Shown piece after piece: positions 9,273 through 64,000 of a DNA stretch of 64,000 nt. The first letter of the stretch is position 1; each line of letters opens with the position of its first letter. The translations under genes and the position numbers were made by a program. The stretch is taken from contig OX411552.1 of the NCBI GenBank assembly GCA_948146395.1, positions 4,029,501-4,093,500 on the forward strand, given 5' to 3'. The notes under the pieces were generated by a model. The model made no database searches. It worked only from the letters and a program-made list of their open reading frames with translations, and was not told where the DNA came from. Source of the DNA: Fragum whitleyi. Its lineage: Eukaryota; Mollusca; Bivalvia; Cardiida; Cardiidae.

Positions 9273-10284
9273 ACAAGATACGCCCGTCACACTGCTTAGT
9301 ATAAACTGGGGGTTTGAATAGAACTGAGGTTATTTTGAATGAATGTTTTTTGCACCCATGAAGTTTCATGATCCTAGCTATTATACTTTTAGATTTATAC
9401 TCCGGACAAGATTCAAGTCTGAAAAACAACAAAGGGCAATAACTCAAAAAATAGGCCAGGTAGAGTTATGGTTCTTGTGCACTGCACTCCCCCTTGGTGA
9501 GATCTATACACCCATGAAGTTTCATGATCCTAGCTATTATACTTTTAAAGATATACTCCGGACAAGATTCAAGTCTGAAAAACAACAAAGGGCAATAACT
9601 CAAAAAATAGGCTAGGTAGAGTTGTGGTTCTTGTGCACTGCACTCCCCCTTGGTGAGATCTATACACCCATGAAGTATAATGATCCTAGCTATTATACTT
9701 TTAGAGATATACTCCGGACAAGATTCAAGTCTGAAAAACAACAAAGGGCAATAACTCAAAAAATAGGCCAGGTAGAGTTATGGTTCTTGTGCACTGCACT
9801 CCCCCTTGGTGAGATCTATACACCCATGAAGTTTCATGATCCTAGCTATTATACTTTTAGAGATATACTCCGGACAAGATTCAAGTCTGAAAAACAACAA
9901 AGGGCAATAACTCAAAAAATAGGCTAGGTAGAGTTGTGGTTCTTGTGCACTGCACTCCCCCTTGGTGAGATCTATACACCCATGAAGTTTCATGATCCTA
10001 GCTATTATACTTTTAGAGATATACTCCGGACAAGATTCTAGTTTGAAAATCAACAAAGGGCAATAACTCAAAAAAAAGGCCAGGTAGAGTTATGGTTCTT
10101 GTGCACTGCACTCCGTAATGATGAGAAGAACACACATGCCAAGTTTGAGGTCGATCGGATTTCAAGTGACAGAGTTATGCTCCGGACAAAGAAGTGGACG
10201 CCGCCGGACGCCCAGCCGCCCGGACGCCCGGACGCCGGACGTCACGGGTGATCCCATAATACGTCCCGTCTTCGACGGGCGTAT
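9273..10284 (+). mobile_element. Helitron/Helentron-like element with 156 bp tandem repeats
   Basis: The left end reads ACAAGATACGCCCGTC. The right end is a hairpin, ATACGtCCCGTC-ttc-GACGGGcGTAT, followed by an A-run. The left ATACGCCCGTC (9278-9288) and right GACGGGCGTAT are inverted copies. Between them is a tandem array and a GC-rich spacer (10190-10250, repeated GGACGCC). No ORF of its own. Subterminal inverted repeats, an internal array and a 3' hairpin resemble Helentron-associated elements (HINE/DINE-1) and oyster pearl elements; this assignment is inference. It ends about 220 bp before the first coding exon of the FkbM gene. Confidence 0.7.
9353..10115 (+). repeat. tandem array, five copies of 156 bp
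   Basis: CACCCATGAAGT recurs at 9353, 9509, 9665, 9821 and 9977, an exact 156 bp spacing. Each unit contains ACAACAAAGGGCAATAACTC and GTTCTTGTGCACTGCACTCC. Copies differ at only a few positions. The 58.2-59.4 kb array is a diverged relative. Open frames on both strands here are by-products of the repeat. Confidence 0.95.
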
Positions 10285-10505
10285 AAAAATAATAGGCGTA
10301 TTCAGTCTCATGGCGAATGTCCCACTTTACTCTTTTCTGCATTTTTCTTGTAATTATCTATCCAAATTAAGCCCTGATTCTTTTAATTTTCACCACACCA
10401 CACCATGTTGGAATGAAATAATCGTGACATTTCTCCATCCCATGGTGACGAAACTCATTTAAATAATTTTCCTATTTTCTTATGTAACAATATATTCTAT
10501 TCTAG

Positions 10506-10999
10506 GTATAGTCATGGCGTCTTTTAAAGTAACCAATTCAGCATTAAGGAACGGATTACGGATTTCACTGCTGCTTGTGATTCTGTATTTGTTGATCATG
10601 GAACTATCTAGATATAGAAAACCTAGTTTCAATAAAATCAAAGAACAGCCATCCAAAAATGGCGGCATCATAAACGGGATTTTCCGAAACCAAATAGGTG
10701 CGAAAGATTTGACGTACAAAATAACTGATATGAATGATTTAAACTTCTCGGTGAAAACACATACTAACTCAGGGCACGAGACTATCATAACTCAACGAGA
10801 AGACTCGCTTGACTATAAGGCAGAGATGAATAAACTAAACGAAGAGAAAGTGGCAGCTGATGATCCAAGATTAATTGACTTGATCAGAAATTACTATATT
10901 TTACTCCCATCTACATTAGAGTATAATCTTACAATACCTGACCGAATAGACCCATCTGCCGGACAAGCGCCTTTCGTAGATAATCGCCTTAACTATACG
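10506..10999 (+). CDS. FkbM/Star-like gene, first coding exon
   Basis: The ATG at 10514 opens 162 codons. Upstream, a pyrimidine-rich run ending TTCTATTCTAG at 10505 looks like a 3' splice site, so transcription probably starts in an unseen upstream untranslated exon. The exon ends ...AACTATACG|GTAAAT at 10999/11000. That donor is preferred to a GTAAGT-like site 19 bp later, because only it joins exon 2 in frame (phase 0). Confidence 0.8.
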
Positions 11000-13900
11000 G
11001 TAAATATCATAACGGGAGGTAAGTTGCAGTGGAAATGCAAATTAGAAAGACATGCCTGTAGTTAAATGGATGATGAAATTCCTTATAGATATTAAGGCTA
11101 CGGGATTCTTTTAATTGTGTGGATCGTCTGTCTAGGCGCTCGGTTCTTTTCAACATCATCAGGCATTGGATATATATATTTTACCGATTGTAAAGTAGAC
11201 TTGTTTGAACGGAGATTAACGTCGCTTTCAACAATCAGTTATATTGCGGCGGCTAGAGCTCCTAACTATGTATTACTGGTATCTCTCACGCCAGTACTAC
11301 TATAACTTCCTTTACTAGCCCCCAGCTCTATCCCGTATAGGTCTGCGATTAAATTATTATATTGGTAAGCGACAAATAGTCGGAAAGGATGAGTGTCGCA
11401 GTCGGGAATCGAACCCGGCACCTCTAGATTGGCAGTCCGACAAGCAACCAAATGCGTTATAACAGCGTCGAATGTAAAATAGAAACAAGGAAGATATCGC
11501 TTATAAGACAATACATTCAAAGATTAAAACAAGAAATGAAATCAGTGTTCATGTCTTTTCCTGATTAGTCATTTCCATCTTTTTAGGAAGGCGGTTTCTT
11601 TGTTGAGTGTGGAGGACTAGACGGCGAAAAAGGCTCTAATACCCTATTATTTGAGAGATATCGAAAATGGAACGGCGTGTTGATAGAAGCAGACCCACTT
11701 AACTTTAAGAAACTTGTGAGAAAACACAGAAAGGCATATGCTATAAATGCTTGTCTTAATATACACCCATATCCTTCCGTTGTAAGTAATCCGACACGCT
11801 TATCTTCATTCAGTATGAAGAAATTTCAGTATGAAGTGAAAGCGACTCAGCCGAAGTTCAATAAAACAATTTAAGGTTGAGGTCCATAATAGATCTGCAA
11901 CATCTCGGTAGTAATGGACTTTATCGATGTAAACCGAGGTTTCTTAATGATTTTCATTCGTCTCTTCATGGTTACTACAGGGCCCGTTTTACTAAACTTC
12001 TTAAGAAAAAATTAATTGTAAGTCGAAATCTATAATAGTATATGGTGCCTTCATTCATTGAGGGATTCTTCCTTGCAATATTTCATTGAAATCGTCTTGA
12101 AAAGACGATTCCAATGAGATGTTGCATGGCAAAATTCCATGCTCAATTACAACTGTAGAAGCAGCTTTAATTTCTGACTTAAGCATAAAATGATCGTAAT
12201 ATGTTTAGTAAAACAGGCCCCAGGTGTGCGACTGGAACGTTAGTTAAAACTGTGCGATCTTCAGTTCCAGTCGCAAACATCCTCAAACGTACAGAAAGTA
12301 GGCTTGAACGTGTATTATTTATTCGAGTATTAAAATTATTTCAAAAGTTTTAAAAATTCTATAAGATTGCAATTATAGGAGCCGAGTGTCTTACTGATTG
12401 TCTTTATTCTTCAATACACGCACCCATAAAGCCACTCATCCTTATTTACATCGGACCTCAAAAATAAAAATTGTCTCAAATTTGGACAGAATGATTGTAT
12501 AATCGCAATGACCGTTCCTTTCGAAAATAAGTCAGATCAGCCAAGCGTCATAGAAAAGGAGCCTTATGAAAATTTAATCAGGAAATCCCCGTTACACTCC
12601 ATAGTTTTCTTCCTGTTGACTTTTAAAACTTGCTCAGAATAATTATTCCTTCACAAGGAATCACCTTTCGAAAATGGGCCCGATCCGTTAAGCGTCACAG
12701 GAAAAGATGCCAAAGGAACATTTAATTAGAAAATCCGGGTTAACGCTATAGATCAAACAGTTTTCGTCTGATTGTCTTCAACTTGCTCAAATGAAAATAT
12801 AATAAGAAAATCCTCGTAAACGCTCTTTAGACCACAGTTTTCCTCCGATTGTCTTCAAACCTATCCAGAATAATTGTACAATCATAAAGATGGTTCTTTT
12901 GGAAAAAGGTCTCGATCCATCAAGCGTCTTGGGAAAAGGATCAAAATGAAAATTCTATTAGAAATTCCTCGTTAATGGCCTAAATTTCGCAGTTTCATCG
13001 GACTGTCTTCAAATTTGCTCCGAAGGATTGTACCCTCACGAGGATGGTTCCTTTTTGGAAATGAGCCCGATCCGTCAAGCGTCACGGGAAAAGAGGCCAA
13101 ATGAAAATTTAATTAGAAAATCTTCGTTTACGCTGTAAAGTCTACATTTTCATCCGATTGTTTTCAAATTTAAACAGAACGCTTGTTTATATCACAAGAA
13201 CGATCTGTCAAGTGTCAGAGGAAATGGGGCCTTATTGAAATTTAAATAAGAAAATTCTCATTAACTTTTTAGAGTTTGCAGTTTCCTTCGGACTATCTCC
13301 AACTTGCTCAGAATGATAGTATGAGTACAATGATTTTTCATATTGAAAATGTATCAGAACGATTACGTGTCACGAGAAAAGGGGCTTTTAGGCAATAAGA
13401 ATCCCTTATAAACATTCTTCTTATGGCAGTTAATGAACATTTCACTTAGTGATCAACACCAGGTGACAATGTGCTCATTGATTTGGTCTGGCGTCATAGA
13501 AAAGGGGGCCTTAGTGTAAACTTCTTGTCAACAAAACTTCTCTTTTACTAATGGATACACTAATGTGGAACTTTTACAGTATTTTCCATTTCAACTGACT
13601 TTGTGCTTTCGAGGTGGTTGAGTTATATGCGGCGTCATACTAAAAGGGACTTTTTTGTTTATTTATTGTTTACACAACTCCTTCATAATACATTAACACT
13701 TATTAGAATGTTTCTCATCATGTGACCATGGTCACATATTCTAGCCATTTGATGATACGCCACGCCACGGAAAAAGGACCATTAATGTAATCTTCCTTGT
13801 TAACAAAACTCATCTTTGGTTTAGTTTGAATGGGATTTTACCCCGCTTTTAACATTCTTTCAGTTTTACAGCGGCGGCTAGAGCATCTAACAATGGATTC

Positions 13901-14862
13901 ATGGTATTTCTTGCACCTGCACCACCATCACATCCTTTCCTAGCCTCCAGCTGATATCCAACATAGATCTTCTTGTACAATTTTCGACCCATTGTTTGAA
14001 GACATATAGTCAGAAAGAATAAGTGCCGCCGTCGAAACGAACCCGGGGCCTTTAGAATGACAGTCCGACGAGCTCCCAACTGCGCTATTACGGCAGAAAC
14101 GACTCTTTTGTATATTGATTTGGTTTTAAACTCTCAAAGAATGTTCTTGTCGTGACCATGAATATATATTTAATCCTTCATTTCTGCATGGATTGTCATG
14201 ACACCTTATGAAAATATTTTTCATGTGACACATTTGCCATCTGGTGCAATTATGCGACGCCATTGGAAAAGGAGCCTTTAAGTAAAATTTCCTGTTTACG
14301 CAACTCCCCCTTCATTCATTGATATATTTTCATTAAACTTTTATTCTTGTTATATCTTGAATAGGACTATTAATACATGAGCTTTCCCCAAAGTCAGAAG
14401 AGCGATCTCAGGTCCTCAGTGGCCTCTTGTTTTACTTTTTAAATCATAAACATTTTGGTATTTCCATTTACGCATGACTTAAAAAGATTATATATTCTTT
14501 TATTCCAGCTTACATTCCAACAAGCTTCAAATGTTGGTAAAATTGTAGAGGGACAAGCTACTGGAAAGTCGACCCAGGTCCAATGTTTTCCCCTCTATTC
14601 AATCCTGCTAGCACTAAACCAGCTGACTGTAGACTTTCTCAGTTTAGACGTGGAAGGATTTGAACTTAAAGTACTGCAGACAATACCGTTTGATAAAGTT
14701 GACATTAGAATGATGACGGTTGAATACGGTCACCAAAAGACGGGTATAAGGGCTCTGCAAAATTTTGTTGAAGGAAAAGGATATGAAACATTGTTGAAAA
14801 TGTCAAGAGACACGTGGTCTGTCAATGATCTCATTTTTAGGAAGAAAGGAATGACTAACTAG
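10514..14862 (+). CDS. FkbM-domain methyltransferase-like type II membrane protein (Star-like)
   Basis: Joined exons 10514-10999, 11587-11781 and 14509-14862 encode 344 residues. Residues 15-31 form one hydrophobic segment after a basic N-terminus, with no cleavable signal peptide, so a type II membrane protein of the secretory pathway is likely; an N-L-T sequon is at 138. Residues ~163-344 are a FkbM-type fold: FFVECGGLDG (166-175), followed by SNT, is the SAM-loop region; LIEADP (194-199) carries the acidic residue expected to contact the SAM ribose; DFLSLDVEGFE (269-279) is the conserved later motif. In the family these are putative SAM-dependent O-methyltransferases. Drosophila Star, an EGF-ligand trafficking factor, has the same domain, and activity is not shown for animal members. 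Substrate unknown. No stop or frameshift interrupts the exons, so it looks intact; both introns are full of transposons. Confidence 0.82.
11211..11470 (-). mobile_element. tRNA-derived SINE in intron 1
   Basis: Minus-strand copy of the window's SINE family. The tRNA-like head (11393-11463 region) contains GGTTCGATTCCCG. The body shows the conserved ATACCAG...TTAGGAGC block, and the 3' domain reads CCGCCGCAATATAAC...GTTGAAAGCGACGTTAA. It lies antisense within intron 1 of the FkbM gene and is diverged. Confidence 0.8.
11587..11781 (+). CDS. FkbM/Star-like gene, second coding exon
   Basis: Acceptor TTTTTAG|GAAGGC at 11586/11587 and donor CCGTT|GTAAGT at 11781/11782 bound a 195 nt, phase 0-0 exon of 65 codons. 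It holds the SAM-loop motif VECGGLDG and the acidic LIEADP motif. Confidence 0.85.
11871..11965 (+). mobile_element. TTAA-flanked element family B, partial copy
   Basis: TTAAGGTTGAGGTCCATAAT, then CTGCAACATCTC and ACCGAGGTTTC, follow the left half of the complete copy at 37891-38055. The right half is not seen. Intron 2 of the FkbM gene. Confidence 0.55.
11980..12221. mobile_element. TIR element with GGGCCCGTTTTACTAAAC ends
   Basis: The left terminus GGGCCCGTTTTACTAAAC is matched by the inverted right terminus GTTTAGTAAAACAGGCCCC. CTTAAG lies next to both, and a central hairpin is built on GAAATCGTCTT / AAGACGATT. About 242 bp, no ORF. hAT-like MITEs often have such ends, but no clear 8 bp target duplication is seen. 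Intron 2. Confidence 0.75.
12370..14430 (-). repeat. degraded ~155 bp tandem array filling intron 2, with a Helitron-like end
   Basis: A block reading CGATCCGTCAAGCGTCACGG or a variant, followed by GAAAAGGGGCC, recurs near 12531, 12681, 12913, 13069, 13201 and 13358. Weaker traces (GGCGTCATA...AAAGGG.CC) run on to ~14290. Units also share TTAATTAGAAAATCC and GATTGTCTTCAA. The minus-strand terminus at 14430 reads ACAAGAGGCC...GACCTGAG, matching the 5' ends at 8029 and 31274. The array is therefore probably the body of a minus-strand Helitron-like element, old enough for a SINE to have landed in it. The 3' end is not recognised. Confidence 0.6.
13825..14098 (-). mobile_element. tRNA-derived SINE in intron 2
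   Basis: Minus-strand, near full length: 3' domain at 13825-13880 (GCCGCTGTAAAACTGAAAG on the minus strand), middle block with ACCATGAATCCATTG, and tRNA-like head up to ~14098 with AGCGCAGTTGGGAGC. It interrupts the ~155 bp array. The 76-codon minus frame here is not a gene. Confidence 0.85.
14509..14862 (+). CDS. FkbM/Star-like gene, last coding exon
   Basis: Acceptor TTTTATTCCAG|CTTACA at 14508/14509 starts in phase 0. The frame runs 117 codons to TAG at 14860-14862 and carries the DFLSLDVEGFE motif and the C-terminal SVNDLIFRKK strand. The ORF extends upstream of the acceptor only through intron sequence. Confidence 0.85.
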   Translation, partial: LTFQQASNVGKIVEGQATGKSTQVQCFPLYSILLALNQLTVDFLSLDVEGFELKVLQTIPFDKVDIRMMTVEYGHQKTGIRALQNFVEGKGYETLLKMSRDTWSVNDLIFRKKGMTN

Positions 14863-14889
14863 AGTACTTCTGCCATAGAACATGTTATT

Positions 14890-15098
14890 TGAGCCTGTAC
14901 GTGACATTTCCAAAAAATCGCTTTTTGCTCAAAACAAAGGCTCTAGCCAGGTTGTGCATCCACACAGTCTGACCAGATACTTAATTGTTGGATATGTAGA
15001 AGGATAATGTGTTTACCTCTTCACAGGCGGTCCGCTAATATTGTGGCTGTCTATACTGAACTTCTTGGAAATGGTTTGAAATGTCATGCACAGGCTCA
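14890..15098. mobile_element. foldback element just after the FkbM stop codon
   Basis: Left end GAGCCTGTACGTGACATTTCC and right end GGAAATGG...GAAATGTCATGCACAGGCTC are inverted copies. The interior CATCCACACAGTCTGACCAG recurs inverted at 28646-28670. The element begins 28 bp after the stop codon, so it may be part of the 3' UTR. Confidence 0.65.
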
Positions 15099-15162
15099 AA
15101 AAATGTGTACTAATACTTGTATTTAAAGGGAATCGTAATTACTAGTTATTCAGGTCCGGTAG

Positions 15163-15602
15163 AGTTAACAACATCGTGAAATTGACAAGATGAATGATTT
15201 TGAAATACTTTAGGAATGAAATTGAATGAGTGTGTGGAGCGAGTTTTGTGTGAATTTAATGGGATGTAATCCTATACCGCAAATTTTGTTCAGGATGAAC
15301 GAAATTAGCGATATTGATTATCTCCCTTTATTAAAAAATGCATACAAGTTCTATAAAAAGTGTCCTATTTTTTTAAGATCTAATCAGACGCTTACAATTT
15401 TAATTATTTCAGTGAAATCAAAAATATTTTTCCCAGCTATTTCTATTTTAGACGAAGTTGTTGTTATATGATTTTTTGCGAGTTTGGAGCGTTTTTGAAT
15501 GGTTTGAGTGAGTGTTTAAGATGAATGAATGGAGCGCTGAGTGAGCGATTTAGAATGGTTTTGATTGAGATGAATGTCAATTTCACGATGTAACTAATTG
15601 TA
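15163..15602. mobile_element. TIR element family A, copy 2
   Basis: AGTTAACAACATCGTGAAAT at the left and TTTCACGATGTAACTAATTG at the right, with the same internal landmarks as copy 1 (GGAGCGAGTTTTG, GATGAACGAAATTAGCGATA, GAGATGAATGTCAATTTCAC). The 81-codon frame within it (15226-15471) is not coding. Confidence 0.75.
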
Positions 15603-16054
15603 TCACATTAAAGCATATAAAGCTGTTGGGAATAAGGTGGTGCAATGAGACATTAAGTCTGTGCGCGACATTTCCAACAAAGAATATATTGAATATATTG
15701 AGAACCCTGGACAATCACACAGTACATAAGAATTGAATGCGTAATAAAATAAAAAGAAACTTGGCATACCTCTTGATCTGTTTTAGATGGCTTAAAGTGA
15801 CTATATGCTAACTTTATCGACATGAACTTAACGGGCTAACTGCAGAGAATACACGGTAGCGAGATTGTGAGCGGTCGCGCTGACCCCGTATAATTGCCTT
15901 TGCCCTTTTAAATTTAAATCACCTTAACTCCGGATTGGTTGCAAATATGCATAGACACGGTTATGCCGTGGCTATCGAAAAAAGACAGAAATAAGACTAT
16001 GAATACGTTTAAAGCTTACATGCCAGTGGAATGCTTAACAAAGGGAATGGCATA
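15603..16054. other. no recognisable gene
   Basis: A GACATTTCCAAC block near 15668 hints at another remnant of the foldback family at 14890. Otherwise nothing is recognised. Confidence 0.4.
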
Positions 16055-17074: not shown

Positions 17075-17160
17075 AATCAATTCTTTAGCGCCGATACGAA
17101 AACCTAAAGCACGTTACTTAGACTAGAGTGCGTTACCGACTGCGCTAATTACGACAGTTG
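17075..17160 (-). repeat. decayed tRNA-like SINE head
   Basis: On the minus strand, TAGCGCAGTCGGTAACGC is a good match to the tRNA A-box/D-arm region of the SINE at 50070. No B box or SINE body is seen beside it. Confidence 0.4.
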
Positions 17161-22000: not shown

Positions 22001-22136
22001 TATCGAGAAATAACGGTAGATTATCACTTGATAATCACACCGCAAAAGCAGTGAAATTATCAAAAACTTATACCCTGCTTTTGTGCATTTATTCTTATAT
22101 GACGTCATCTATGCGGGGCGAAATAAGTGACGTCAC
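22000..22136. repeat. dispersed repeat shared with 51725-51860
   Basis: GAGAAATAACGGTAGATTA..., CACACCGCAAAAGCAGTGAAAT and ACCCTGCTTTTGT followed by TGACGTCA and GCGGGGC align with the 51.7 kb region (GAGAAATCACGGTAGATTA, CACCGCATCATCTGTGAAAT, ACCCCGCTTTTGT, GCGGAGCC, TGACGTCA). Confidence 0.6.
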
Positions 22137-22228
22137 AATGAACGTCGCATAGCAATCACGCGGAAAATGACGCGCTTTACCAAAATATGTCCTAGAAATT
22201 TCACATTTTGACACATTTTTGCAATAAA

Positions 22229-22393
22229 GAAATAGAATAATCGTTTGTTTTTCGAGTAAGATCGATTGATATCTCATTTCGTGAACACCAAAAGCTATAT
22301 TTTCACTCGTGGCTCTGCCACTCGTGAAAATATAGCTTTTGTTGTTCACTCAATGAAATATAAATCGATCTTACATTGAAACAAACGATTATC
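22229..22393. repeat. ~165 bp hairpin, copy 1
   Basis: Inverted arms AATAATCGTTTG.../...CAAACGATTAT enclose AAGATCGATTGATATCTCAT / ATGAAATATAAATCGATCTT and CAAAAGCTATATTTTCACTC / GAGTG...AAAATATAGCTTTTG, with loop GGCTCTGCC. Foldback element without coding capacity. Confidence 0.85.
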
Positions 22394-22662
22394 CTCTATA
22401 TATCATTAGCAACGGTGTGATGATTACATGGTTTGAAATATTTCTTATGTTTCTGTAAAATATATCAGTTTTACACTGACATTCTAAACACCTTAATTTA
22501 ATTTTTGTGGGTGGGGAAATGATATCCTCCTTTCAAATAATTTTACTTTGGATGCATTTGAGTTTAAAACAATGAACGTCGCATAGCAATCACGCGGAAA
22601 ATGACGCGCTTTACCAAAATATGTCCTAGAAATTTCACATTTTGTCACATTTTTGCAATAAA

Positions 22663-22827
22663 GAAATAGAATAATCGTTTGTTTTTCGAGTAAGATCGAT
22701 TGATATTTCATTTCGTGAACACCAAAAGCTATATTTTCACTCGTGGCTCTGCCACTCGTGAAAATATAGCTTTTGTTGTTCACTCAATGAAATATAAATC
22801 GATCTTACATTGAAACAAACGATTATC
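22663..22827. repeat. ~165 bp hairpin, copy 2
   Basis: Same arms and loop as at 22229-22393, displaced by 434 bp as part of the tandem duplication. Confidence 0.85.
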
Positions 22828-23004
22828 CTCTATATATCATCAGCAACGGTGTGATGATTACATGGTTTGAAATATTTCTTATGTTTCTGTAAAATATATC
22901 AGTTTTACACTGACATTCTAAACACCTTAATTTAATTTTTGTGGGTGGGGAAATGATATCCTCCTTTCAAATAATTTTACTTTGGATGCATTTGAGTTTA
23001 AAAC

Positions 23005-23914: not shown

Positions 23915-25206
23915 TTAGCTTGGCTGTTTTCGAAGAAAACCCGAGGTATTATGATCTCCTTGGCGTCGATGTTGGCGTTGGCGTGACCAACTTTAACCTT
24001 GGTCATAACTTTTGAATGATTAGTCATAGAGTCTTTATATTTCACATGATCATTGCTTGGGACAAGACCTCTCTGTAGGTACCAAGTTCAAGGTCTTCTG
24101 TCAAGGTCAAGGTCATTTTTCAAGGTCAAATTTCTTTAAAAAAATAATCATGATAATAATTTGTGAATGGTAAGTCATTGAGCCTTCATATTTCACATGA
24201 TCATTGCTCGCGACAAGACATTTCTGTACGTACCAAGTTCAAGGTCATCTGTCAAGGTCAATGACATTTTGCAAGGTCAAATTTCTTCAAAAAAAAAAAA
24301 AAAAAAATCATGATCATAATTTTTGAATGGTCAGTCATTGAGCCTTCATATTTCACATGATCATTGCTCGAGACAATACCTCCTGTAGGTACCAAGTTCA
24401 AGGTCATCTGTCAATGTCGTTTTTCAAGGGCAAATTTCTTCAAAAAATTTAACCTTGGTCATAATTTTTGAATTGTAAGTCATTGAGCCTTTATATTTCA
24501 CAAGATCATAGCTTGGGACAAGACTTTTCTGTAGGTACCAGGTTCAAGGTCATCAGTCAAGGTCAAGTTCATCCTCAAGGTCAAATTTGTTTGAAAAAAA
24601 ATAACCTTGGTCATAACTTTTAAATGGTTAGTCATGGAGCCTTCATATTTCAGATGATCATTGCTTGGGACAAGACCTTTCTGTAGGTACCAAGTTCAAG
24701 GTCATCTGTCAAGGTCAAGGTCATTTTTCAAAGTCAAATTTCTTTAAAAAATTTAACCTTGGTCATAACTTTTGAATGGTAAGTCATGGAGCCTTCATAT
24801 TTCACATGATCATTGCTTGTGACAAGACCCTTCTGTAGGTACCAAGGTCATCAGTAAAGGTTAATGTCATTTTTCAAGGGCAAATTTCTTTTAGAAATTT
24901 AACCTTTGCATAACTTTTGAATGCAAGTCATAGAGCATTCATATTTCAAATGATCATTGCTCGGGACAAGACCTTGCTGTAGGTACAAAGCTCAAGAACA
25001 TCAGTCAAGGTCATCTTCAAGGTCAAATTTGTTTAAAACAATTTAACCTTGGTCATAACTTTTAAATGGTTTGTCAAAGAGCATTCATATTTCACATGAT
25101 TATTGCTTGGTACAAGACATTTCTGTAGGTACGAAGTTCATATATTTGCATTTGCCTAAGAAATAATTAACAGCCGAGCGTTTGCACCCGCTTTCTTTGC
25201 TCTTGT
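23915..25206 (-). mobile_element. Helitron-like element with ~150 bp array, minus strand
   Basis: On the minus strand the 5' end at 25206 reads ACAAGAGCAAAG...GCGGGTGC. The 3' end is a hairpin, GTTTTC-ttcg-(G)AAAAC, followed by AGCCAAGCTAAAA, with CTAA at about 23915-23918. Hairpin plus short spacer plus CTAA resembles a Helitron 3' terminus (hairpin ~10 nt before CTRR). The interior is a tandem array with no ORF. About 1.3 kb. Confidence 0.65.
23995..25145 (+). repeat. tandem array, eight copies of ~150 bp
   Basis: Units share AACCTTGGTCATAACTTTTG, AGTCATAGAGCCTTCATATT, TTCACATGATCATTGCT, CTGTAGGTACCAAGTTCAAG and repeated AAGGTCA. The AGTCAT landmark recurs near 24020, 24172, 24330, 24478, 24630, 24783 and 24927, with a weaker one near 25071. 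Some units carry small deletions. Confidence 0.9.
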
Positions 25207-31273: not shown

Positions 31274-32786
31274 ACAAGAGGGCCGTTGGCCCTGGGTGCG
31301 CTCACCTGAGAAAAAAGCTTCATTACCTAGGTATGTCCATGCAACTGCAGAAAAGGAGATTTTCACTTATTCAATCAGATAACATTTGAAATAATCCTCC
31401 CCTGGTCATTATTTATCTAAGCTTTTTCATAAAAGGTCTGTGATCAGCTAATCTATGCCAGATATACAGGCTGAGTCTGAGACTTTTAAAGTTTTCTTTA
31501 ATGAGTTGATCAATCCATGTCAAATATAAAGGCTGTAGGGATTCAAAATTCTCAACCAAGCACTCCCCCCTCCCCCAAGATGCTCTGCACCTGGTGAATC
31601 TACAGTCATGATTTTAGCTAATTCAATTAATGTCCATATGCTGATCATCCATACCAATTTTCAAGTCTGTAGGACTCCTGGTTCATTAGAAGAAGTTTAA
31701 AGATTTCAAAAATGATCCAAGGTACTACCCCCTCCCCAAGACACTCAGCACCTGGTGACCCAACAGTCATCATTTTAGCTATTTTTATTAAGATCAATAT
31801 ATTGATTACCCATGACAATTTTCAAGTCTGTAGGGTTTCTGATCCAGGAGAAGAATAAGGTTAAAGATTACAAAATTGATCCAAAGTACCCCCCTCCCCC
31901 CTAAAGCTCCGCATCTGGTGACCCTACATTCATGATTTTAGCTATTTAATTTTAGATACATATGCTTATCATCCATGCCAATTTTGAAGTCTGTAGGGCT
32001 CCTGGTTTATTAGAAGATGAAGGTTAAAGTTACAAAATTTTCACAAAAGTACTCCCCCATGGTGCTCCGCACCTGGTGGCATTACAGCCATGATTTTAGC
32101 TATATTTATTAAGGTCTATGAGCTGATCCTCCATGCCAATTTTCAAGTCTGTAGGGCTTGTGGTTCAGAAGAAGAAGAAGGTTAAAGATTACAAAATTTT
32201 CACAAAAGTACTACCCTCTCCCCCCTAATGATCCGCACCTGGTGAATCTACAGTCATGATTTTAGCTAATTCAATAAATGTCCATATGCTGATCATCCAT
32301 GCCAATATTCAAATCTGTCGGGCTCCTGGTTTAGAAGAAGAAGAAGGTTAAAGATTACAAAATTTTCACAAAAGTACTACCCCCTCCCCCCTGGTGCTCC
32401 GCACCTGGTGGCCCAACAGATATGATTTTAGCTAATTTTATTAAGGTCTATGAGCTGATCCTCCATGCCAAATTTGAACGCTGTAGGGCTTCTTTTTCAG
32501 AAGAAGAAGAAGGTTAAAGATTACAAAATTTACCCAAAGTACTACCCCCTCCCCCCTAGTGCTCTGCACCTGGTGGCCCAACAGATATGATTTTAGCTAT
32601 TTTTATTAAGGTCTTTGAGCTGATCATCCATGCCAAATTTCAAGGCTGTAGGGCTGCTTGTTCAGAAGAAGAAGAATTTTAAAGCTTTTCTTAAAATTTT
32701 TACTTTCGTTTCCATAGCAACCAGAGTTTTTCACCGATTTCAATTCTTTTAGCAATTCTTAAAGGGGATCACCTAAGGAACATTTC

Positions 32787-32818
<32 letters not shown>

Positions 32819-32959
32819 TAGGAGGAGATGTCATTTAAAGAAATTGTTGACGGACGACGGACGACTGACGACGGACGACGGACGACTGACGACGGACGGA
32901 CGCCGGACAAAAGGTGATCACAATAGCTCACTTGAGCACATTGTGCTCAGGTGAGCTAA
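31274..32959 (+). mobile_element. Helitron-like element inserted in a LINE, ~1685 bp
   Basis: The 5' end reads ACAAGAGGGCC-gtt-GGCCCT, with GCTCACCTGAG just inside (to 31310). The 3' end is the hairpin TGAGCACATTGTGCTCA followed by GGTGAG then CTAA (32956-32959), and CTCAGGTGAGC (32946-32956) inverts the 5' GCTCACCTGAG. Because it splits a LINE reading frame (...VKSI / KAMKNC...), the ends can be set to within one A, and removing it leaves no target duplication. The interior is a ~160 bp tandem array and a (GACGGAC)n-like spacer (32847-32905). Hairpin-CTAA suits a non-autonomous Helitron, but the 5' end is not TC and the flanks are not A/T. Confidence 0.75.
31480..32700 (+). repeat. tandem array, about eight copies of ~150-165 bp
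   Basis: TTTTCAAGTCTGTAGGGCT recurs near 31661, 31821, 31985, 32141, 32309, 32475 and 32641, with a weak copy near 31530. Units share TCATGATTTTAGCTA, GCTGATCATCCATGCCAA, GAAGAAGAAGGTTAAAGATT, and a C-run followed by GCTCCGCACCTGGTG. Confidence 0.9.
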
Positions 32960-39302: not shown

Positions 39303-39640
39303 TTTTTAGCTCATATAAGCACAAAGTGCTCATGGTGAGCTATTGTGGTCGAGCTGCGTCCGTCATCAAGTCGTCCGTCAACATCTTGTGTGCACTCTAG
39401 AGGCCACATTTTTGGCCCAAGTATCTTGAAGCTTGGTCAGAATGTTTGTCTTCAACAAATCTCGGTCATATTCTAACTTGAGTCAAGTGGGGTCAAGTGA
39501 GGACAAATTTTTGGCCCAAAGGTCTTGAAACTTGGTCAGAATGTTAGTCTCCATCTTAGCTCGGTCAACTTCAAAATTGGGTCAAGTGAGGTCAAGTGAG
39601 GCCAATGATGGGGACAGGGAGTCAAATTTTAGTAATACGG
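39303..39640 (-). mobile_element. Helitron-like element 3' end, minus strand
   Basis: TTTTTAGCTCATATAAGCAC then AAAGTGCTCATGGTGAGCTA is, read on the minus strand, a hairpin followed by GAGCTAAAAA, close to the 3' end at 32959. The body contains recurring TTGGCCCAA...CTTGAAACTTGGTCAGAATG units near 39411 and 39511. A further unit lies at 40510-40640, suggesting the element extended to ~40700 and was later split. Confidence 0.6.
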
Positions 39641-46480: not shown

Positions 46481-46552
46481 TTTTTATGCCCCTGTATCGA
46501 GAGATCGGGGGCATATTGTTTTACTCATGTCCGTCTGTCTGTCTGTCTGTCC

Positions 46553-46598
<46 letters not shown>

Positions 46599-46787
46599 CC
46601 GTCCGTCTGTCCGTCCGTCTGCCTGAAAACTTAACCTTGCCAATATCTTCAAGCCTATTCAAGATACAAAGCTAATATTTGGCATAATGATAGATCTCAA
46701 TGATCCACATCCGCTGGTACCAAAGTCAATGTCATGTGATAAGGTCAAGGTCATCTGTCAAGGTCAAACTTTGAAAAAATGCCGTTA

Positions 46788-46820
<33 letters not shown>
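46481..46820 (-). mobile_element. short Helitron-like element with GGGGGCAT ends
   Basis: On the minus strand it starts ACAAGATGTGTTTGTGAAAC at 46820, followed by ATGCCCCCG. At the other end it has the hairpin ATGCCCCCGATC...GGGGCAT followed by an A-run. A (TCTG)n microsatellite and one partial AAGGTCA-type unit fill the interior. Same layout as the other ACAAGA-starting elements but with a much reduced array. Confidence 0.6.
46534..46623 (+). repeat. (TCTG)n microsatellite
   Basis: About 22 units of TCTG/TCCG with C/T interruptions, inside the 46481-46820 element. Confidence 0.95.
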
Positions 46821-56522: not shown

Positions 56523-56530
56523 TTAGTGGA

Positions 56531-56562
<32 letters not shown>

Positions 56563-56860: not shown

Positions 56861-57059
56861 ACGAATACATGGTTCAAATAACAACAAATCCAATCTGGTG
56901 GAAGATTATTTCACAGAGACGTTTTATTAGCATTTCTGTTATATAGTCGCACATCTATTAGACTTTTGAATATTAAACCTCTCGTCCCATTGTGTATGCT
57001 TTAACTAGGTATTTTTCAATTAAAAATGTCAATTTCTCTAGAGAACTAAGACAATTAAA

Positions 57060-58165
57060 TACTGAGTCCGTCACACAGACAAAAACATCGCTCTCTCGTT
57101 TGCTGTAGACCAAATGTCATGAGAGTACGCATTGATTCTGTTTTCAACTATTGTCATGTTTACACTCGATTTATTTCTATAATTTGTTAAAAGATCCAGT
57201 TTGGTCATAATACTTTGAATTTCACTGCACCAGTTGTTTGAAGCGATATTAGTCATGTTAAAAACATGTCTTGTAAGTCCATCTTCACTGAACGACAGAA
57301 GTCTATTCCAATATCGCAGCATTATAATCCATCGTCTATACGAGCTGGGAAGCCATCCTGTATATCCCGTGAGTGCAGCTATAGGTGCAAATCTATGAAC
57401 ACCCGTGAAGTCTCTCATAGCGCGATGTTGAACGTTGTCTATTGGTTGATTTTGTTTGAAGCCCCAGGTTGACGGATTATAAATAAAACAATCGGAGCCA
57501 CACAGTTGAAATAGGGTTTTTCATACGATTTAAACCCTAAATGTTTGAGACCATGTACTTTTGAGATAACACCTCCTAGGGCCCTGCTAGCGGCTTTTGC
57601 GACCGATTCACAATGTGACGAAAAACTACCCTTTACATTAAAGATGACACCTAAATATTTATATTCTGCTACTGTTTCTATTTCTTCCTCCCCAATTCTA
57701 AACCGAAAATTGCTTTTTTTCTTTTCTCCCTTTCCTTAAATGGATACACTTGGATCTGTCTCTATTAACTATTACTCTCCACTTCCTACACCAATTATGC
57801 ATACGATCTAACATTTGTTGCAGTGATTTTTCCGATTTTGTAACAAGAATGATATCGTCGGCGTAGAGAAGAATGGACACTTGTGAAGCTCCTAACAATA
57901 CTCCAACGTTCAGGTCATTGATTTCACTATCTGAATCGTTTATGAAAATAGAAAACATTGTGGGAGAAGAGCTGTCTCCTTGAACGACGCCCATTTTACA
58001 ATCGAACCAATCTGTCATTTTGCTGTTAATCCTAAGAGATGCAGAAGAATAACAATATATTGACTTTAAGGAATTGTACACCTTTCCGTCAATCCCGTTT
58101 AATAACAATCTGTATAGTAACAAGTGCATGTCGTATTGCGATGCAATACAGGAGTCCCCCACCGG
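57060..58165 (-). pseudogene. LINE RT fragment of a YADD-type family
   Basis: The minus frame 58162-57698 contains the RT palm: LLLYRLLLNGIDGKVYNSLK, GVVQGDSSSPTMFSIFINDS, ILLYADDIILVTKSEKSLQQ (intact YADD box) and SKCIHLRKG. A frameshift then gives an IETVAEYKYLGVIF thumb, and a later frame (57418-57071) continues the C-terminal region (RAMRDFTGVHRFAP, GWLPSSYRRW). The 5' end is truncated just before the palm. It differs from the FADD family elsewhere in the window. Inactive. Confidence 0.85.
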
Positions 58166-58204
58166 ATAACCAAAAATCCTCTCTTATAATATATCTCCTA
58201 CTTA

Positions 58205-59385
58205 CTAGATCTATAACTGTAAAAGTTTAAAGTTGCTAGCACTTATAGTTTAGGAGATATGATCCGGACAAGAATGTAAGACTAAAAACAACAAAGGGCA
58301 ATAACTCAAAAAGTGGGCCTGGCAGAGTAACAGTTCTTGTACATGACACTTGTCCTCGATAAGATCTATCAGTGTACAAAGTTTGAAGTTGCTAGCACTT
58401 ATGGTTTAGGAGATATGATCCAGACATAAATGTAAGCCTAAAGACAACAAAGGGCAATAACTCAAAAAGTGGGTGTGGCTGAGTCATGGATCTTGAACAT
58501 GACACTTCGCCTCAATGAGATCTATAAGTGTACAAAGTTTGAAGTTGCTAGCACTTATAGTTTAGGAGATATGATCCGGACAAGAATGTAAGGGTAAAAA
58601 CAACAAAGGGCAATAACTCAAAAAGTGGGTGTGCAGAGTTATGGATCTTGCGCATGACACTTCGCCTCAATGAGATCTACAAGTGTACGAAGTTTGAAGT
58701 TGCTAGCACACATAGTTTAGGAGATATATTCCGGACAAGAATGTAAGGGTAAAAACAACAAAGGGCAATAACTCAAAAATTGGGCGTGGCAGAGTAACGG
58801 TTCTTGAACATGACACTTTTCCTCAATGAGATCTATAAGTGTACAAAGTTTGAAGTTGCTAGCACTTATAGTTTAGGAGATATGATCCGGACAAGAATGT
58901 AAGGGTAAAAACAAAGGGCAATAACTCAAAAAGTGGGCATGGCAGAGTTATGGATCTTGAACATGACACTTCTCCTCAATGAGATCTTTAAGTGTACAAA
59001 GTTTGAAGTTGCTAGCACACATAGTTTAGGAGATATGTTCCAGACAAGAATGTAAGGGTAAAAACAACAAAGGGCAATAACTCAAAAAGTGGGCGTGGCA
59101 GAGTAACTTTTCTTGAACATGACACTCCTCCTCAATGAGATCTATAAGTGTAGCAAGTTTGAAGTTGCTAGCACATACGGTTTAGGAGATATGTTCCGGA
59201 CAAGAATGTAAGGGTAAAAACAACAAAGGGCAATAACTCAAAAAGTGGGCGTGGCAGAGTAATGGTTCTTGAACATGACACTCCTCCTCAATGAGATCTA
59301 TAAGTGTACCAAGTTTGAAGTTGCTAGCTCATATGGTTTAGAAGATATAGCCCGGACAAAAGCGTGACGGACAGACGGACAGACG
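58205..59385 (+). repeat. tandem array, eight copies of ~156 bp
   Basis: GAAGTTGCTAGCAC recurs near 58230, 58389, 58542, 58698, 58853, 59007, 59162 and 59318. Each unit has ACAACAAAGGGCAATAACTC and TTTAGGAGATATGATCCGGA, and it is a diverged relative of the 9.35 kb array. The array ends in a (GACGGACA)n spacer at 59364-59393, as the Helitron-like elements do, but no terminal hairpin was recognised. Confidence 0.92.
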
Positions 59386-59628
59386 GACAGACCAACTGAG
59401 TATCATCTCTGGGGTTCTGTGCATGTGGGGTGTGCAGTACAAACAGCACTTGTGGGTTGCACTTTAGTCCGTGCATGTGGGTTTGAATCAGCCAAATAGC
59501 TGTATGGGGTAAAGTGCTAATAACTGGAATTAAGGGCCAAACGAGGCCATATAAACTTAAGGGTAATAGCAAAGTACATGTACTTATAAACTATTACTTT
59601 TAAATAAATATATCTACATATGAATAGG

Positions 59629-59726
59629 TTGATTGATTGAATGGGGTTTAACGCCGCTTTCAACATTTTTTTCAGTTATATCGCGGCGGCTGGAGCACCT
59701 AACAATGGTTTCCTGGTATTTCTCTG
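59629..59726 (-). mobile_element. SINE fragment (3' half)
   Basis: Minus-strand: (CAAT)n tail, CCGCCGCGATATAACTGAAA domain and AACCATTGTTAGGTGCTCC, breaking off within the ACCAGGAA block. Confidence 0.85.
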
Positions 59727-60955
59727 GTACTTCTTATACTGCACATACTTCTTACATATTATTGCATTATCAAAATTCTAAACACTTTCTAATTCCGTCA
59801 AATCTTGTCCAATTTGCAAACGGTTTGAAGTAGAAAAGGCAGGAAAGTGCCCAAGTTTTCTGAATCTGATTTTGTTTGGGTTTTTTTTTTTTTGTTGTTG
59901 TTGTTTTTTTGATTTGCTGATAAAAAAGTAATTTACAACCCAACAAAATTTTAATTGGTTGCAAAAAACTTTTTTTAAGCTTATTTATAAGATCTACCAC
60001 ATCCAGTATTTCCTGGTATAACTTTTTGCATCTGCTTCAAACCTAATTCAAATAAGTCATATATTAACAGAATCATTAAAAAATTGAAATTGTTGTGCCA
60101 TGTGAATCCCCACTCTGTTGGGTTCCAAATGAAATTCTTTCTTCTTCCTCTTGATGTAAGCAACTGTATCTTTTTAATTTACAGAAACAACATAAAACTG
60201 GACTTCTGCCGTCAGTCTACAATGTCCCCATTGTGGATTTGAAAAAAAGTTTTTGGCGATTGAATAAAGTATTGGCAACAGATAAAAGTAGTCTTGGTGA
60301 CGTCATTGTAATCTACTTTATGATGTCATGAAACAATTAAAACAATCCAAGACATTGTGCCTAATAAATTCAAATTCTTTTATTGGTATAAAATCCAGCC
60401 AAAGGATTATTACCACAAACAGTGTTACTATTACAAAACATAGATCAATGTGAACAGATAAACACTCCCCATGGTATTTAATGTATTTATCATACAATAG
60501 AAAGAGAATAAAAATTATTGAGAGTTTAATTAGATATTCAGAGTGATATTCATTTTCTATCCGTTTTTAAAAGGTATTACCAAACAATAAAATTTTTTAC
60601 TTGTCCTAATTCAAAGTGCATGTAATTTTGCACTTTTTGGTGATTCTGTTTTAGACATCATTGTGAGAAATGGAGGAAATGCTTGTAAAGGCATTTTTTT
60701 CCATTTTTCACGATGTTTTCCAAAGCCTTTACCTTGTAGAATGACAATGGGCTTCACTATTTGGGAAGGCTAAAGTTTGAAGTGATTGACAAGGGCTGTT
60801 TTAAACGTCCTTATTAGAAAAAAAAGCGCCAACTTGTGCCAACGCTTAACTGCATGTGCTGGATAATGCAAAAATCTAAGTCCAACAAGAGCCATGTCAG
60901 ACATGACCATCCCCGCCCCAAAAAAAGCTTGATAATAAACTGAAGCCAGTTAGAT
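59727..60955. other. no recognisable gene
   Basis: AT-rich sequence with a (GTT)n/poly(T) patch near 59880-59910. Confidence 0.4.
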
Positions 60956-61066
60956 TTTGGCTTCTTGTACACCGCACTTCTCCCCAATGAGATCTATCCA
61001 CCTATGAAGTTTCAAATTGACAGCTATCATACTCTCAGAGATAAGCTTCGAACAAAATCCAAGTAA

Positions 61067-61957
61067 AGTTTGGTGGGTAAATTAGTTTGTTTCAACTTGT
61101 CTATCATCCTGAATAATGTTTTTCTTAACCACATCTTTTTTCCTCATGTGTATCATTCTCTTGCTAATTTAGAGCCCTTTTTCACTTATGCTGCAGTAGG
61201 CCTTTTCTTCTCATCAAAGCCTTTTTTGAAAATGTCTTTAATATCATTTTCTTCTTTACTCCATTGGAAACGTGTGGAGGCAGAATTTCTTTTCATTGTA
61301 GCATTCCTATCGTCTTCTTCGTATTCCAAATCCAGTCCCTTATCCATAGCTAGTCCATCGTCCAAAACTTCAGACAGCGGAATATCAATTCTGCTTCGTT
61401 CCTCGGCCAAGTCTAGTAACGAAAAATGTTGGGACATGTAATTTGTAAGCTAAAGTATAATGTACTATTTTTGTTTGTGTTGATGCTGTCTATTGTCACT
61501 TCTTCTGTATTTCAGACATGTAAGCTATTGAAACTGTGGGCCAATCAAAATTTCACAAAAATTTTGGAAAAGGGTCACAAAAGGCACATTCTGGCTAAGT
61601 TTCTTTGAATTCGGCACAGTGGTTCAGCAGGAGATGTCGTATAAAGATTTCGGGCTCAAAATAAGCCCCACCCTGCAACGCCCATATTCATTGGCCAATT
61701 AAAATTTCGCAAACAATTTTTGTAAAGATTTCAAAGTGAAAAAATGCCATGCCCTGCCAGACCCATATTTATGGGCCAATCAGAATTTCACGAATAATTC
61801 TTAATGAGGGTTGCCCAAGGAACATTCTGGCAAAGATTCATTGAAATCAGCCCAGTGGTTCAGGAGAAGAAGTTTTTTTTAAAATTATTAACGATGGACG
61901 ACGGCCCAAGGTGATCCTTATAGCTCCCCTTGAGCATGTTGTGCTCAGGTGAGCTAA
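61067..61957 (+). mobile_element. Helitron-like element (GCTAA end) nested in another element
   Basis: The 3' end TGAGCATGTTGTGCTCAGGT then GAGCTAA (CTAA 61954-61957) matches the hairpin-CTAA terminus at 32959. Upstream are two body units with GGGCCAATCA.AATTTC and CCCAGTGGTTCAG, and a GATGGACGACGG spacer. The 5' ACAAGAG terminus is not seen and ~20 bp of host repeat are missing at the left border. Confidence 0.55.
61186..61452 (-). pseudogene. possible captured coding fragment, Myb/SANT-like
   Basis: An 83-codon minus frame starting at 61437, highly charged, contains EYEEDDRNATMKR and ends FQWSKEENDIKDIFKKGF...KRPTAA. W-x-EE spacing followed by a basic/aromatic helix suggests a Myb/SANT-like helix. 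An acceptor-like TATACTTTAG lies just upstream of LTNY-Met on that strand. The frame stops at TAA right after RPTAA. The opposite-strand frame (61070-61441) is its shadow. It lies within Helitron-like sequence, so gene-fragment capture is possible. The family call is tentative. Confidence 0.25.
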
Positions 61958-62372
61958 AAGTAGGCAATGTAGAGTTATCGTTCTTGTTCACTGCACTTCC
62001 CGTTGATGACATCTATCCACACGTAAATTTTCATGATCATAGCTATTTTAATTCCTTTTATGATCATAGCTATTTTAGTTTCAGAGATATGCTCTAGACA
62101 AAGTCAAAGTACAAAAACAACAAAGGGAAATAACTAAAAAATAGGCAAGGTAGAGTTATTATTCTTGTGCACTGCACTTACGCTTGATGACATCTATCCA
62201 TCCATGAAGTTTCATGATCTTAGCTATTATGCTTTCAAAGATATGCTCCGGACAAAGTCAAAGCATAAAAATCAACAAGGGGAATGACTAAAAAAAATTG
62301 GCAAGGTAGAGTTATGGTTCTTGTACATTGCACTCTGTAATCATGAGGAATATTACAGCCAAGTCAATCAGC

Positions 62373-62550
62373 TGATTGAATGGAGTTTAACGCAGCTTTC
62401 AACATTTTTTCAGTTATATTTTGGTGTCTAGGGCACCTAACAATGGATTCCTGGTATTTCTCTCACCAGTACAACCATCAAATCCTTTCCAAGCCTCCAG
62501 CTGCTATCTCACATTGGTCTACGATTATCAACCCGTTGGTGGTAGACAAA
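62373..62550 (-). mobile_element. tRNA-derived SINE, truncated
   Basis: Minus-strand: CATTCAATC tail, AATATAACTGAAA domain, ACCAGGAATCCATTGTTAGG block and AGCTGGAGGCTTGGAAAGGA. The tRNA head is absent. Inserted close to the 3' end of the GACGGGCGTAT-family element. Confidence 0.85.
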
Positions 62551-63008
62551 TTCAAGTAAAACGGACTTCAGATAACAGAGATGTACTCCGGACAAATAAG
62601 TGGACGCCGCCTGTCCGCACGGGTGATCGAATAATATGTCCTGTTTTCAACGGGCGTATAAAAATATTCAGTGCTGTTTTTTGTACAGAGCTCCCAAGAG
62701 TAAAACTGATACAAAAACACTACTTGTACTAGAGTATTGAAATATTGATAAAGACATTTTATGCGGCAACATTACAATTACCTGTGTCATGGTTGCCATA
62801 AATTTCCTGAGTGTTGTGGCTGTTATTCTTTCCTGGTACTACAGGTTCGCATTATGACAGCAGTCAGCCAAGCAATCATACACACAGAACACTGATTTTG
62901 TCTTTCCTGAAGTTCATGAACAAAACAAAATTCATGATAGTTCTAGATGATGCCACATACTTAATGTAAAGGCTGCAGTGGATTTTCTGTGATTGAGATT
63001 TATCCTAC

Positions 63009-63249
63009 CCCTTATCATGCTGAATAAATTTTGGCTAAAAATTTGCATAAAAATCAAAGGGCAAAAAGCGCTGAAAGAACCAACTGTAGGCAAATTTTAT
63101 TTGAAAACTAAACCTTTTGACAATTCTGGTTTGAAAGTAAGAACCAGGTGGTGTAGACTAACACCAGACTGCACATATGTGCAGGCTGATGTTTGTCTTT
63201 AGCTCCTGAAAAAGCAGAAATATTCCGGGTTCAGCATGATAAGGGTTAA
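63009..63249. mobile_element. TTAA element family D, copy 2
   Basis: CCCTTATCATGCTGAATAAA at the left and TTCAGCATGATAAGGG then TTAA at the right. The interior aligns throughout with 45601-45826. The left TTAA has decayed. The 69-codon frame is not a gene. Confidence 0.85.
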
Positions 63250-63379
63250 CATTAATATTTCTTGTACTTTTTGTTTTCTGTCCAGCAAAACATTAAGCCC
63301 CTATGTTGCAAAAACTAAAACAAGAGGGTCATAACTACCTAGAATCATTCATTGGAGTCGACTATGTTTGTTTGTTTGA

Positions 63380-63746
63380 ATGGGGTTTTAAATTAAGACC
63401 TATTGAGTGGTAACAAGGAAAATTTCATTAAGACCCCTTTTCCCGTAACATATGTCAGAATGCTAACATAATTAATAGGCTTCTTCCTATTGACCAGACA
63501 AACATCTTGAGCAATTAAGAGAAAGATTGAGCCGAAATTGTCACCTTTAGAGTGGTAACAAGAAAATTGTCATTAAAATTATTAAATGACTCCTTTTCCT
63601 GTTAACTGAGTATGAATGTCGCGAAACATCAATAGGATTCTTCCATATGAGTAGACAAACATTCTGACAAAGTCTGAGAAAGATTGAGCCAAATTTGTGA
63701 GTTCAAGAGTGGTATCTCTAAAAGTCGACGCTTAGGTGAGCTTAAA
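63380..63746 (+). mobile_element. Helitron-like element remnant with ~150 bp repeats
   Basis: GAGTGGTAACAAG(G)AAAAT recurs at ~63403 and ~63551, with a third partial GAGTGGTATC at ~63709. GAGAAAGATTGAGCC recurs at 63520 and 63680. The end CTTAGGTGAGCTTAAA (63731-63746) corresponds to the CTCAGGTGAGCTAAA terminus. The 5' part is missing. Confidence 0.5.
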
Positions 63747-63757
63747 CCCACAGGGAA

Positions 63758-64000
63758 ACAAGAGGGCAAGAATGGCCCTAAAGCGCTCACCTGAATTTTA
63801 TTGGTCCAATAGATGACATCAAAGTAAAACTCTGGTAAAGTATCATTGAAATTGGCCCTGTGGTTCAAGAAATTTTGGTAAATGATTTCAATGTGAAAAA
63901 ATGAAAACCACTGCCACGTCAACATTTTTGGGCCAATCAAAATTTCGCAGAGTATTTTTAGAAAGATTCACACAAGAAATATTTTGTTTAAATTCATTAA
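63758..64000 (+). mobile_element. Helitron-like element, 5' portion running off the window
   Basis: It begins ACAAGAGGGCAAGAATGGCCC, then GCGCTCACCTGA, the same 5' terminus as at 31274. Body units (GGCCAATCAAAATTTCGCAG) resemble those at 61690-61800. The 103-codon minus frame here (63629-63940) is not coding. Confidence 0.7.

Follow-up and report, generated by a model that had tools for sequence, protein, structure and literature searches.

A family of probable non-autonomous Helentrons and its autonomous partner among repeats with a common CTTGT end in the bivalve Fragum whitleyi

The window analyzed here, a stretch of 64,000 nucleotides of contig OX411552.1 of the bivalve Fragum whitleyi (assembly GCA_948146395.1, positions 4,029,501 to 4,093,500), carries several families of repeats that have unrelated interiors and share a few terminal bases. 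These repeats are very probably several families of HINEs (non-autonomous Helentrons), whose common ACAAG corresponds, on the other strand, to a 3′-terminal CTTGT. A preliminary description had placed seven termini starting with ACAAGA at 9273, 31274, and 63758 on the plus strand and at 8029, 14430, 25206, and 46820 on the minus strand. All seven sites are present, and for four of them (31274, 9273, 25206, and 46820) both ends of the element lie in the window. The opposite (5′) end was sought in the window for the termini at 8029, 14430, and 63758 and was not found.

The family 1 element (31274..32957, minus strand) has its 5′ end at 32957, after a run of Ts, and its 3′ end at 31274. The 5′ end is formed by the subterminal inverted repeat (subTIR) GCTCACCTGAG and its inverted copy, which give a strong hairpin (32922..32958), and is adjoined by a GTCC/GTC-type microsatellite (32849..32898). 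The body contains a tandem array with a period of 166 (or 324) and 79 to 80% matches (31540..32684), and the 3′ side presents the subTIR CTCAGGTGAGC (31300..31310), the palindrome AGGGCC-aac-GGCCCT (31279..31293), and the terminal CTTGT (31274..31278, ACAAG on the plus strand). The family 4 element (9255..10284, minus strand), of which a second copy occurs in L007, features the 5′ subTIR TACGCCCGTC with its inverted copy (10260..10285), an array of 4.9 copies with a period of 156 (9353..10114), and a CTTGT border at 9255. The family 2 element (23917..25206, plus strand) has a subTIR pair with one mismatch (23918-23928 and 25169-25179) around an array of 7.7 copies with a period of 152 (23992..25140). 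The family 3 element (46486..46820, plus strand) is only 335 bp long and lacks the 150-bp array; it has the subTIR pair ATGCCCC/GGGGCAT, a TGTC microsatellite (46528..46625), and the palindrome TGTGTTT-cac-AAACACA followed by a TCTTGT end (46798..46820). Thus, as the preliminary description had it, an inverted partner is seen in all four two-ended elements and an array in most, namely, three of the four, with periods of 152 to 166, the 46820 element having a microsatellite only. The hairpin that it reported at the A-rich end is strong, by RNA energies, in the elements at 31274, 46820, and 9273 and weaker in that at 25206.

The ACAAGA hexamer occurs 90 times in the window versus a mean of 50 in shuffles, with many of the copies inside tandem arrays, so that by itself it is a poor guide to a border. 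At 31274, 8029, 63758, and 46820, alignment with copies elsewhere holds up to CTTGT and then diverges. The end at 31274 is 97% and 96% identical to copies in L005 and L006, respectively, up to this point; for the family 1 3′ terminus at 7955..8029 (plus strand), copies in L003, L030, L007, and L020 stop at the same base, and the family 1 3′ terminus at 63758..63832 (minus strand) is likewise placed by copy alignment. At 9273, both copies (window and L007) have 18 further bases, GACAATTTGGCACCTTGT, in common, and the true border therefore lies at 9255, where it reads ACAAGG. Since the ends at 25206 and at 14430 (a diverged family-1-like 3′ terminus, 14356..14430, plus strand) have no second copy in the genome sample, these two borders are placed by the motif. 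A further family absent from the preliminary description, family 6 (58120..59359, minus strand), shows ACAAGT, both at 58120 and at L015:4356; it has a CTTGT end at 58120, the palindrome GTATTGC-atc-GCAATAC, a subTIR near 58151-58163, and an array at 58207-59359, and its 5′ end was not identified. The ends ACAAGG and ACAAGT show that the conserved unit is ACAAG and not ACAAGA. Copy alignment thus bears out the idea of a short end common to families whose interiors are unrelated, and ACAAGA does mark the true border in the families tested in this way, except at 9273, where the border is 18 bp further out. RNA energies reveal a clear palindrome adjoining ACAAG in families 1, 3, and 6.

The orientation of these elements is opposite to that first given. 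What had been read as a 5′ start is a Helentron 3′ end seen on the complementary strand, and the supposed 3′ hairpin with an A-rich end is a Helentron 5′ end, consisting of TTTTA, the subTIR, and its inverted copy. On this strand, the 5′ side runs from the target T run through (T)A, subTIR, inverted copy, and a GTCC-like microsatellite into the body, and the 3′ side runs from the body (often an array of about 150-bp units) through the reversed subTIR and usually a short palindrome to CTTGT and the target T. The 5′ TTTTA with subTIR and inverted copy and the 3′ CTTGT are common to families 1 to 4, all of which also have the subterminal inverted repeats at both ends that characterize HINEs. Where the listings of 5′ and 3′ ends overlap on C1, there are 36 family 1 3′ ends: 23 are preceded within 6 kb (513 to 5,151 bp) by a 5′ end of the same strand, 2 are followed by a same-strand 5′ end, none has an opposite-strand 5′ end, and the other 11 have no 5′ end. 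The window elements match the published HINE order of 5′ subTIR, inverted copy, microsatellite, array, 3′ subTIR, and palindrome, as given in the accessible text of PMC7492417 and PMC4067079. The preliminary description was right to name oyster pearl elements and DINE/HINE as the nearest layouts; its suggestion of a poorly described variant falls, as the layout is that published for Helentrons and HINEs.

A search for Helitron_like_N, in which 150 of 260 candidates were scored, retrieved many long open frames in the same genome. Among them, family A is represented by two copies of a 2,508-codon frame, on C1 and C7. These copies are 99.94% identical over 5,401 bp and 99.90% over 2,920 bp on the 3′ side, and 97.96% over 2,599 bp on the array-bearing 5′ side; both start with TTTTTAGCTCACCTGAGCACGAAGTGCTCAAGGTGAGCT and end with CTCAGGTGAGCGATTAAGGGCCACTATGGCCCTCTTGT, after which they diverge. 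The intact C1 copy, Helentron A, extends over 16,027 bp, from TTTTAGCTC to CTTGT. It has the same ends as family 1 in the window, and its open reading frame (ORF) runs in the orientation of the family 1 ends, from the 5′ end toward CTTGT. The ORF of 2,494 amino acids is predicted to contain Herpes_teg_N, DUF6570, Helitron_like_N, PIF1, and a C-terminal Exo_endo_phos. A Rep (HUH) nuclease and a Pif1-like helicase are thereby combined in one protein (Helitron_like_N, 4.2e-27; PIF1, 2.4e-22), with an AP-type endonuclease at the C terminus (Exo_endo_phos, 2.2e-06, residues 2310-2487 of 2494) and a herpes-tegument-like (VTD-type) protease (Herpes_teg_N, 1.4e-09); the helicase part matches Helraiser chain 7lcc. 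This predicted domain set is the Helentron set. The protease type is reported in Helentrons, and also in Helitrons of molluscs, in the accessible part of PMC9741609. Helentron A itself carries arrays of 145-bp units (11.5 copies) and 154-bp units (4.7 copies), and arrays therefore need not be an invention of HINEs. The 154-bp unit (L029:2127-2846) contains TAGCTCAGTGGTGAGAGC, which resembles a tRNA box A, so that this array may derive from tRNA-related sequence.

Family 1 is the only HINE family found to share its ends with an autonomous Helentron of the same genome. The statement that Helentrons have other ends thus does not hold here, where intact Helentrons carry family 1 ends, and the proposal of one replication machinery for all families, together with the search for an autonomous partner with the same termini that it called for, succeeds for family 1 and not for families 2, 3, 4, and 6. 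The 3′ side was read at 12 autonomous loci, comprising 2 of family A, 5 read for 4.5 kb each, and 5 short stretches placed by geometry. A palindrome and CTTGT end fitting the frame were found for family B (2,469 codons, C12) and, by motif only, for family D (2,578 codons, C4). In family B, the C12 and C2 copies agree at every base over 658 bp and diverge immediately past CTTGT|T.

The CTTGT end was also counted across the genome. Copies of the window ends were aligned in a sample of 20 stretches of 10 kb at fixed positions and a few others, which retrieved 30 3′ ends. After the register of family 4 had been corrected and an autonomous end included, CTTGT is present in 28 of 31 ends, TCTTGT in 26, and a T follows in 28; as these ends were chosen by their likeness to the window ends and include a few near-duplicates, they are not an independent count. 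Within CTTGT each base carries 1.8 to 2.0 bits of information; the first base outside carries 1.45, the one after it 0.6, and those farther out, in T-rich flanks, 0.03 to 0.6. Exact patterns that left the end bases open and required a T after the end were then matched to the whole genome, with the reversed pattern as a control. The family 3 core occurs at 6,960 places (3,467 + 3,493; control, 0) and the core of one family 1 subtype at 3,354 places (1,698 + 1,656; control, 0); among the matches listed, all on C1, CTTGT ends 93 of 100 and 96 of 100, respectively. When the family 3 pattern specified CTTGT followed by a base other than T, it matched 180 places, a number that, set against 0.93 × 6,960, gives an estimate that T follows CTTGT in about 97% of cases. 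The family 1 5′-end pattern, which required the first T of TTTTA, occurs at 12,398 places (control, 0), with TTTTA in 90 of 100 among the matches listed.

Empty sites place the insertions in T runs. The C7 Helentron is inserted in a HINE array of which intact monomers are available in L007 (two) and L020, and comparison of the empty site CCC-TTTTT-ACATAG with the filled site CCC-TTTTT[AGC...CTTGT]T-ACATAG locates the junction; one further L020 monomer has four Ts. Among five further insertions tested, bridging matches were obtained for three (family 1 in L015, family 1 in L014, and family 3 in L006). Compared with most or all of the empty copies displayed for C7 and L015, the filled site contains a single additional T; in L014 it exceeds the closest copy (96.9% identical) by one T, and fewer Ts are present in the remaining copies. 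Because the site lies in a T run, an extra T carried by the element and the duplication of one T are indistinguishable. The check for empty sites thus yielded four paralogous sites (families 1 and 3 and Helentron A), all in T runs, with a duplication of at most one ambiguous T. Helitron2 is described as inserting at TTTT^T or TTTT^C, and Helentrons at TT (PMC5148889, accessible text).

Several results weigh against the assignment to HINEs with a common CTTGT end. Families 2 and 4 lack a clear palindrome beside CTTGT, by RNA energies. Among the autonomous loci examined, none is a partner for families 2, 3, 4, or 6, and comparison by eye of 36 family 3 5′ hairpins with 150 Rep places gave no convincing pair; the nearest family 3 hairpin precedes a family A Rep on C11 by 12 kb and falls outside that element by its known geometry. 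An end was shown at 5 of the 12 autonomous loci and was absent from 7 within the 1.0 to 4.5 kb read 3′. These comprise three of the five loci read for 4.5 kb, where no palindrome and CTTGT end fits the frame, and four of the five short stretches placed by guess, of which one, in a family B copy on C16, does not reach as far as the end. At one locus without a fitting end, L035, a short complete family 1 HINE lies there instead. Two of the five further insertions, one of them perhaps mispaired, gave no empty site, and no sequence in the sample bridges the joined flanks of the four two-ended window elements. The T-run length also varies between monomers; the paralogues of the family 3 site have about 2 to 6 Ts, so that this site excludes only a longer duplication. 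Lastly, a scan of the window and a 200-kb sample for a hairpin before a pentamer failed to single out CTTGT: it gave 23 of 768 against 7 to 16 hits for 19 other letter orderings, with a higher rate for TTCGT and an equal one for CGTTT. When an exact subTIR match was also required, CTTGT, CTTTG, and TCTTG gave 6, 6, and 5 hits, too strict a scan to inform, and with the subTIR but not the hairpin, CTTGT gave 33 against 7 to 24, 11 of the 33 being repeats of one array. Since these raw scans did not single out CTTGT, reliance is placed on the copy alignments and the open-end patterns.

Other origins were weighed against this evidence. A separate, poorly described rolling-circle class starting with ACAAGA, distinct from Helitrons and Helentrons, would account for terminal bases that are neither TC nor CTRR and for a fixed 5-base end joined to unrelated interiors. 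It is very improbable, given that the orientation is reversed, that the layout and T target fit published HINEs (as far as the accessible text goes), and that the protein encoded between family 1 ends in the autonomous element is that of a Helentron and includes a C-terminal endonuclease; for family 1 the autonomous copies largely refute it. Cut-and-paste elements with target duplication, similar to miniature inverted-repeat transposable elements (MITEs), are scarcely credible: the elements are short and non-coding and have inverted repeats, and pearl was first described as a MITE (PMC7492417, accessible text), but these elements have subterminal, asymmetric repeats and two dissimilar ends, and the empty sites leave room for the duplication of one T at most. 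A narrower alternative, compatible with the Helentron assignment of family 1, is that families 2, 3, 4, and 6 were moved by other enzymes and that CTTGT/T reflects convergence on a common target preference. The missing partners of these families, the lack of the usual palindrome in families 4 and 2, and the one-T accounting that the family 3 site leaves unsettled speak for such convergence, which is nonetheless unlikely in view of the 5′ TTTTA with subTIR and inverted copy and the 3′ CTTGT common to families 1 to 4, and of a T-run insertion of family 3 that shows no longer duplication.

A canonical Helitron (5′ TC, 3′ CTRR, insertion at A^T) was rejected on the TTTTA.../CTTGT ends and the T-run target, and Helitron2, a Rep-helicase without endonuclease, on the C-terminal endonuclease of Helentron A. 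By the features tested (ends, T target, and domains), the sequences would be assigned to a Helentron and its HINEs and not to a canonical Helitron, Helitron2, or a MITE.

By analogy with the Helitron and Helentron literature, the Rep nuclease of the autonomous Helentron would nick the T run before TTTTA, and the Pif1-like helicase would peel off the strand. The palindrome and CTTGT^T would act as the stop and the second nick, and the released strand or circle would join into a T run. In such a scheme the outer bases would be common cut sites and the subTIRs the family-specific part of recognition. This division is proposed because the outer bases are constant and the subTIR pair is family specific and matched within each family: the inner pairs change together at both ends (GCTCACCTGAG, ATGCCCC, TACGCCCGTC, GCTTGGCTGTT/GCTCGGCTGTT, and others). 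It is possible, at somewhat less than even chances, that Helentron ends in this genome are modular, with a fixed outer code (TTTTA at 5′, CTTGT^T at 3′) as a universal cut site and an inner subTIR pair conferring specificity.

Pearl elements of bivalves consist of an array flanked by conserved modules, and the likeness to them, an array between conserved modules, is one of layout and not of compared sequences. They have been re-filed as non-autonomous Helentrons (PMC7492417). As described in the accessible text of the same paper, Cg_HINE of Crassostrea gigas has a 5′ subTIR, inverted copy, GTCC-type microsatellite, satellite-like array, 3′ subTIR, and 3′ palindrome and a T-rich target without duplication, as here; this likeness too is one of layout, not of compared end sequences. 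Unlike Cg_HINEs, to which its authors could relate no autonomous Repbase Helentron, family 1 has an autonomous Helentron. The Helentrons and HINEs of mites, Drosophila, and Culex (PMC4067079) share with those described here a Rep-helicase-endonuclease ORF, subTIRs, 3′ palindrome, TT target, variable number of terminal Ts, and arrays; the palindrome lies about 8 to 35 bp from the 3′ end in mites and 5 to 6 bases from it here in families 1 and 3. The accessible text of that paper, figures aside, contains no word starting with ACAAG or CTTGT. Helitron2/FoHeli elements of Fusarium (PMC5148889, accessible text) are similar in their hairpins, asymmetric inverted repeats, and TTTT^T insertion (Helitron2); FoHeli3-5 end in CTCCTGT, and the 3′ end is said, of Chaetomium copies, to be more conserved than the 5′ end. 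Unlike Helentron A, they are described without the C-terminal endonuclease. No paper combining Helentron with a word starting with CTTGT was found in the literature, where end sequences usually stand in figures or supplements, so that absence is not shown.

The window contains further ends. A family 1 5′ end (TTTTAGCTC) at 39305..39605 (plus strand) has monomers 73 to 80% identical to those of Helentron A. On the minus strand, family 4 and family 4-like 5′ ends lie at 62618..62663 and 2316..2358, respectively, and a family 1 5′ end at 61893..61959 is nested inside an array of family-4-type monomers (61959-62663); nesting of Helentrons or HINEs in HINE arrays also occurs in four fetched cases (L014, L015, L006, and L028/L030). 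Head-to-tail neighbors occur at 63738-63758, where the 63758 terminus is followed after 11 bp by a second 5′ end, and at L017:6870-6871, where a 3′ end (CTTGC) is joined directly to a TTAGCTC 5′ end; such neighbors fit read-through or repeated use of one site. On C1 (G000 C1:10426878-10434591), family 3 and family 1 ends adjoin twice with an equal spacing of 814 bp, about 6.9 kb apart, which looks like a segmental duplication. A possible further terminus at 60885 (minus strand) has the palindrome CATGTCTGACATG followed by GCTCTTGT and a T. Just inside the 14430 terminus, a tRNA-like stretch (TAGCGCAGTTGGGAGC ... GGGTTCG; about 14030-14090, minus strand) is possibly a short interspersed nuclear element, and a 434-bp unit in two tandem copies with 99% matches (22135-23004) is a recent duplication.

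Two features may be new: the link between a bivalve-type HINE family and its autonomous partner, and a CTTGT end that stays fixed from family to family. Full-length, near-identical copies with the same ends link a large array-carrying HINE family to an autonomous Helentron. If the ends are modular as proposed, exchange of the inner repeats alone could create a family or let another Helentron capture one. Helentron ends are hard to find because they lack TC and CTRR, and a fixed CTTGT^T end, if true, would provide a simple search key for Helentrons and a cut site that is directly testable.

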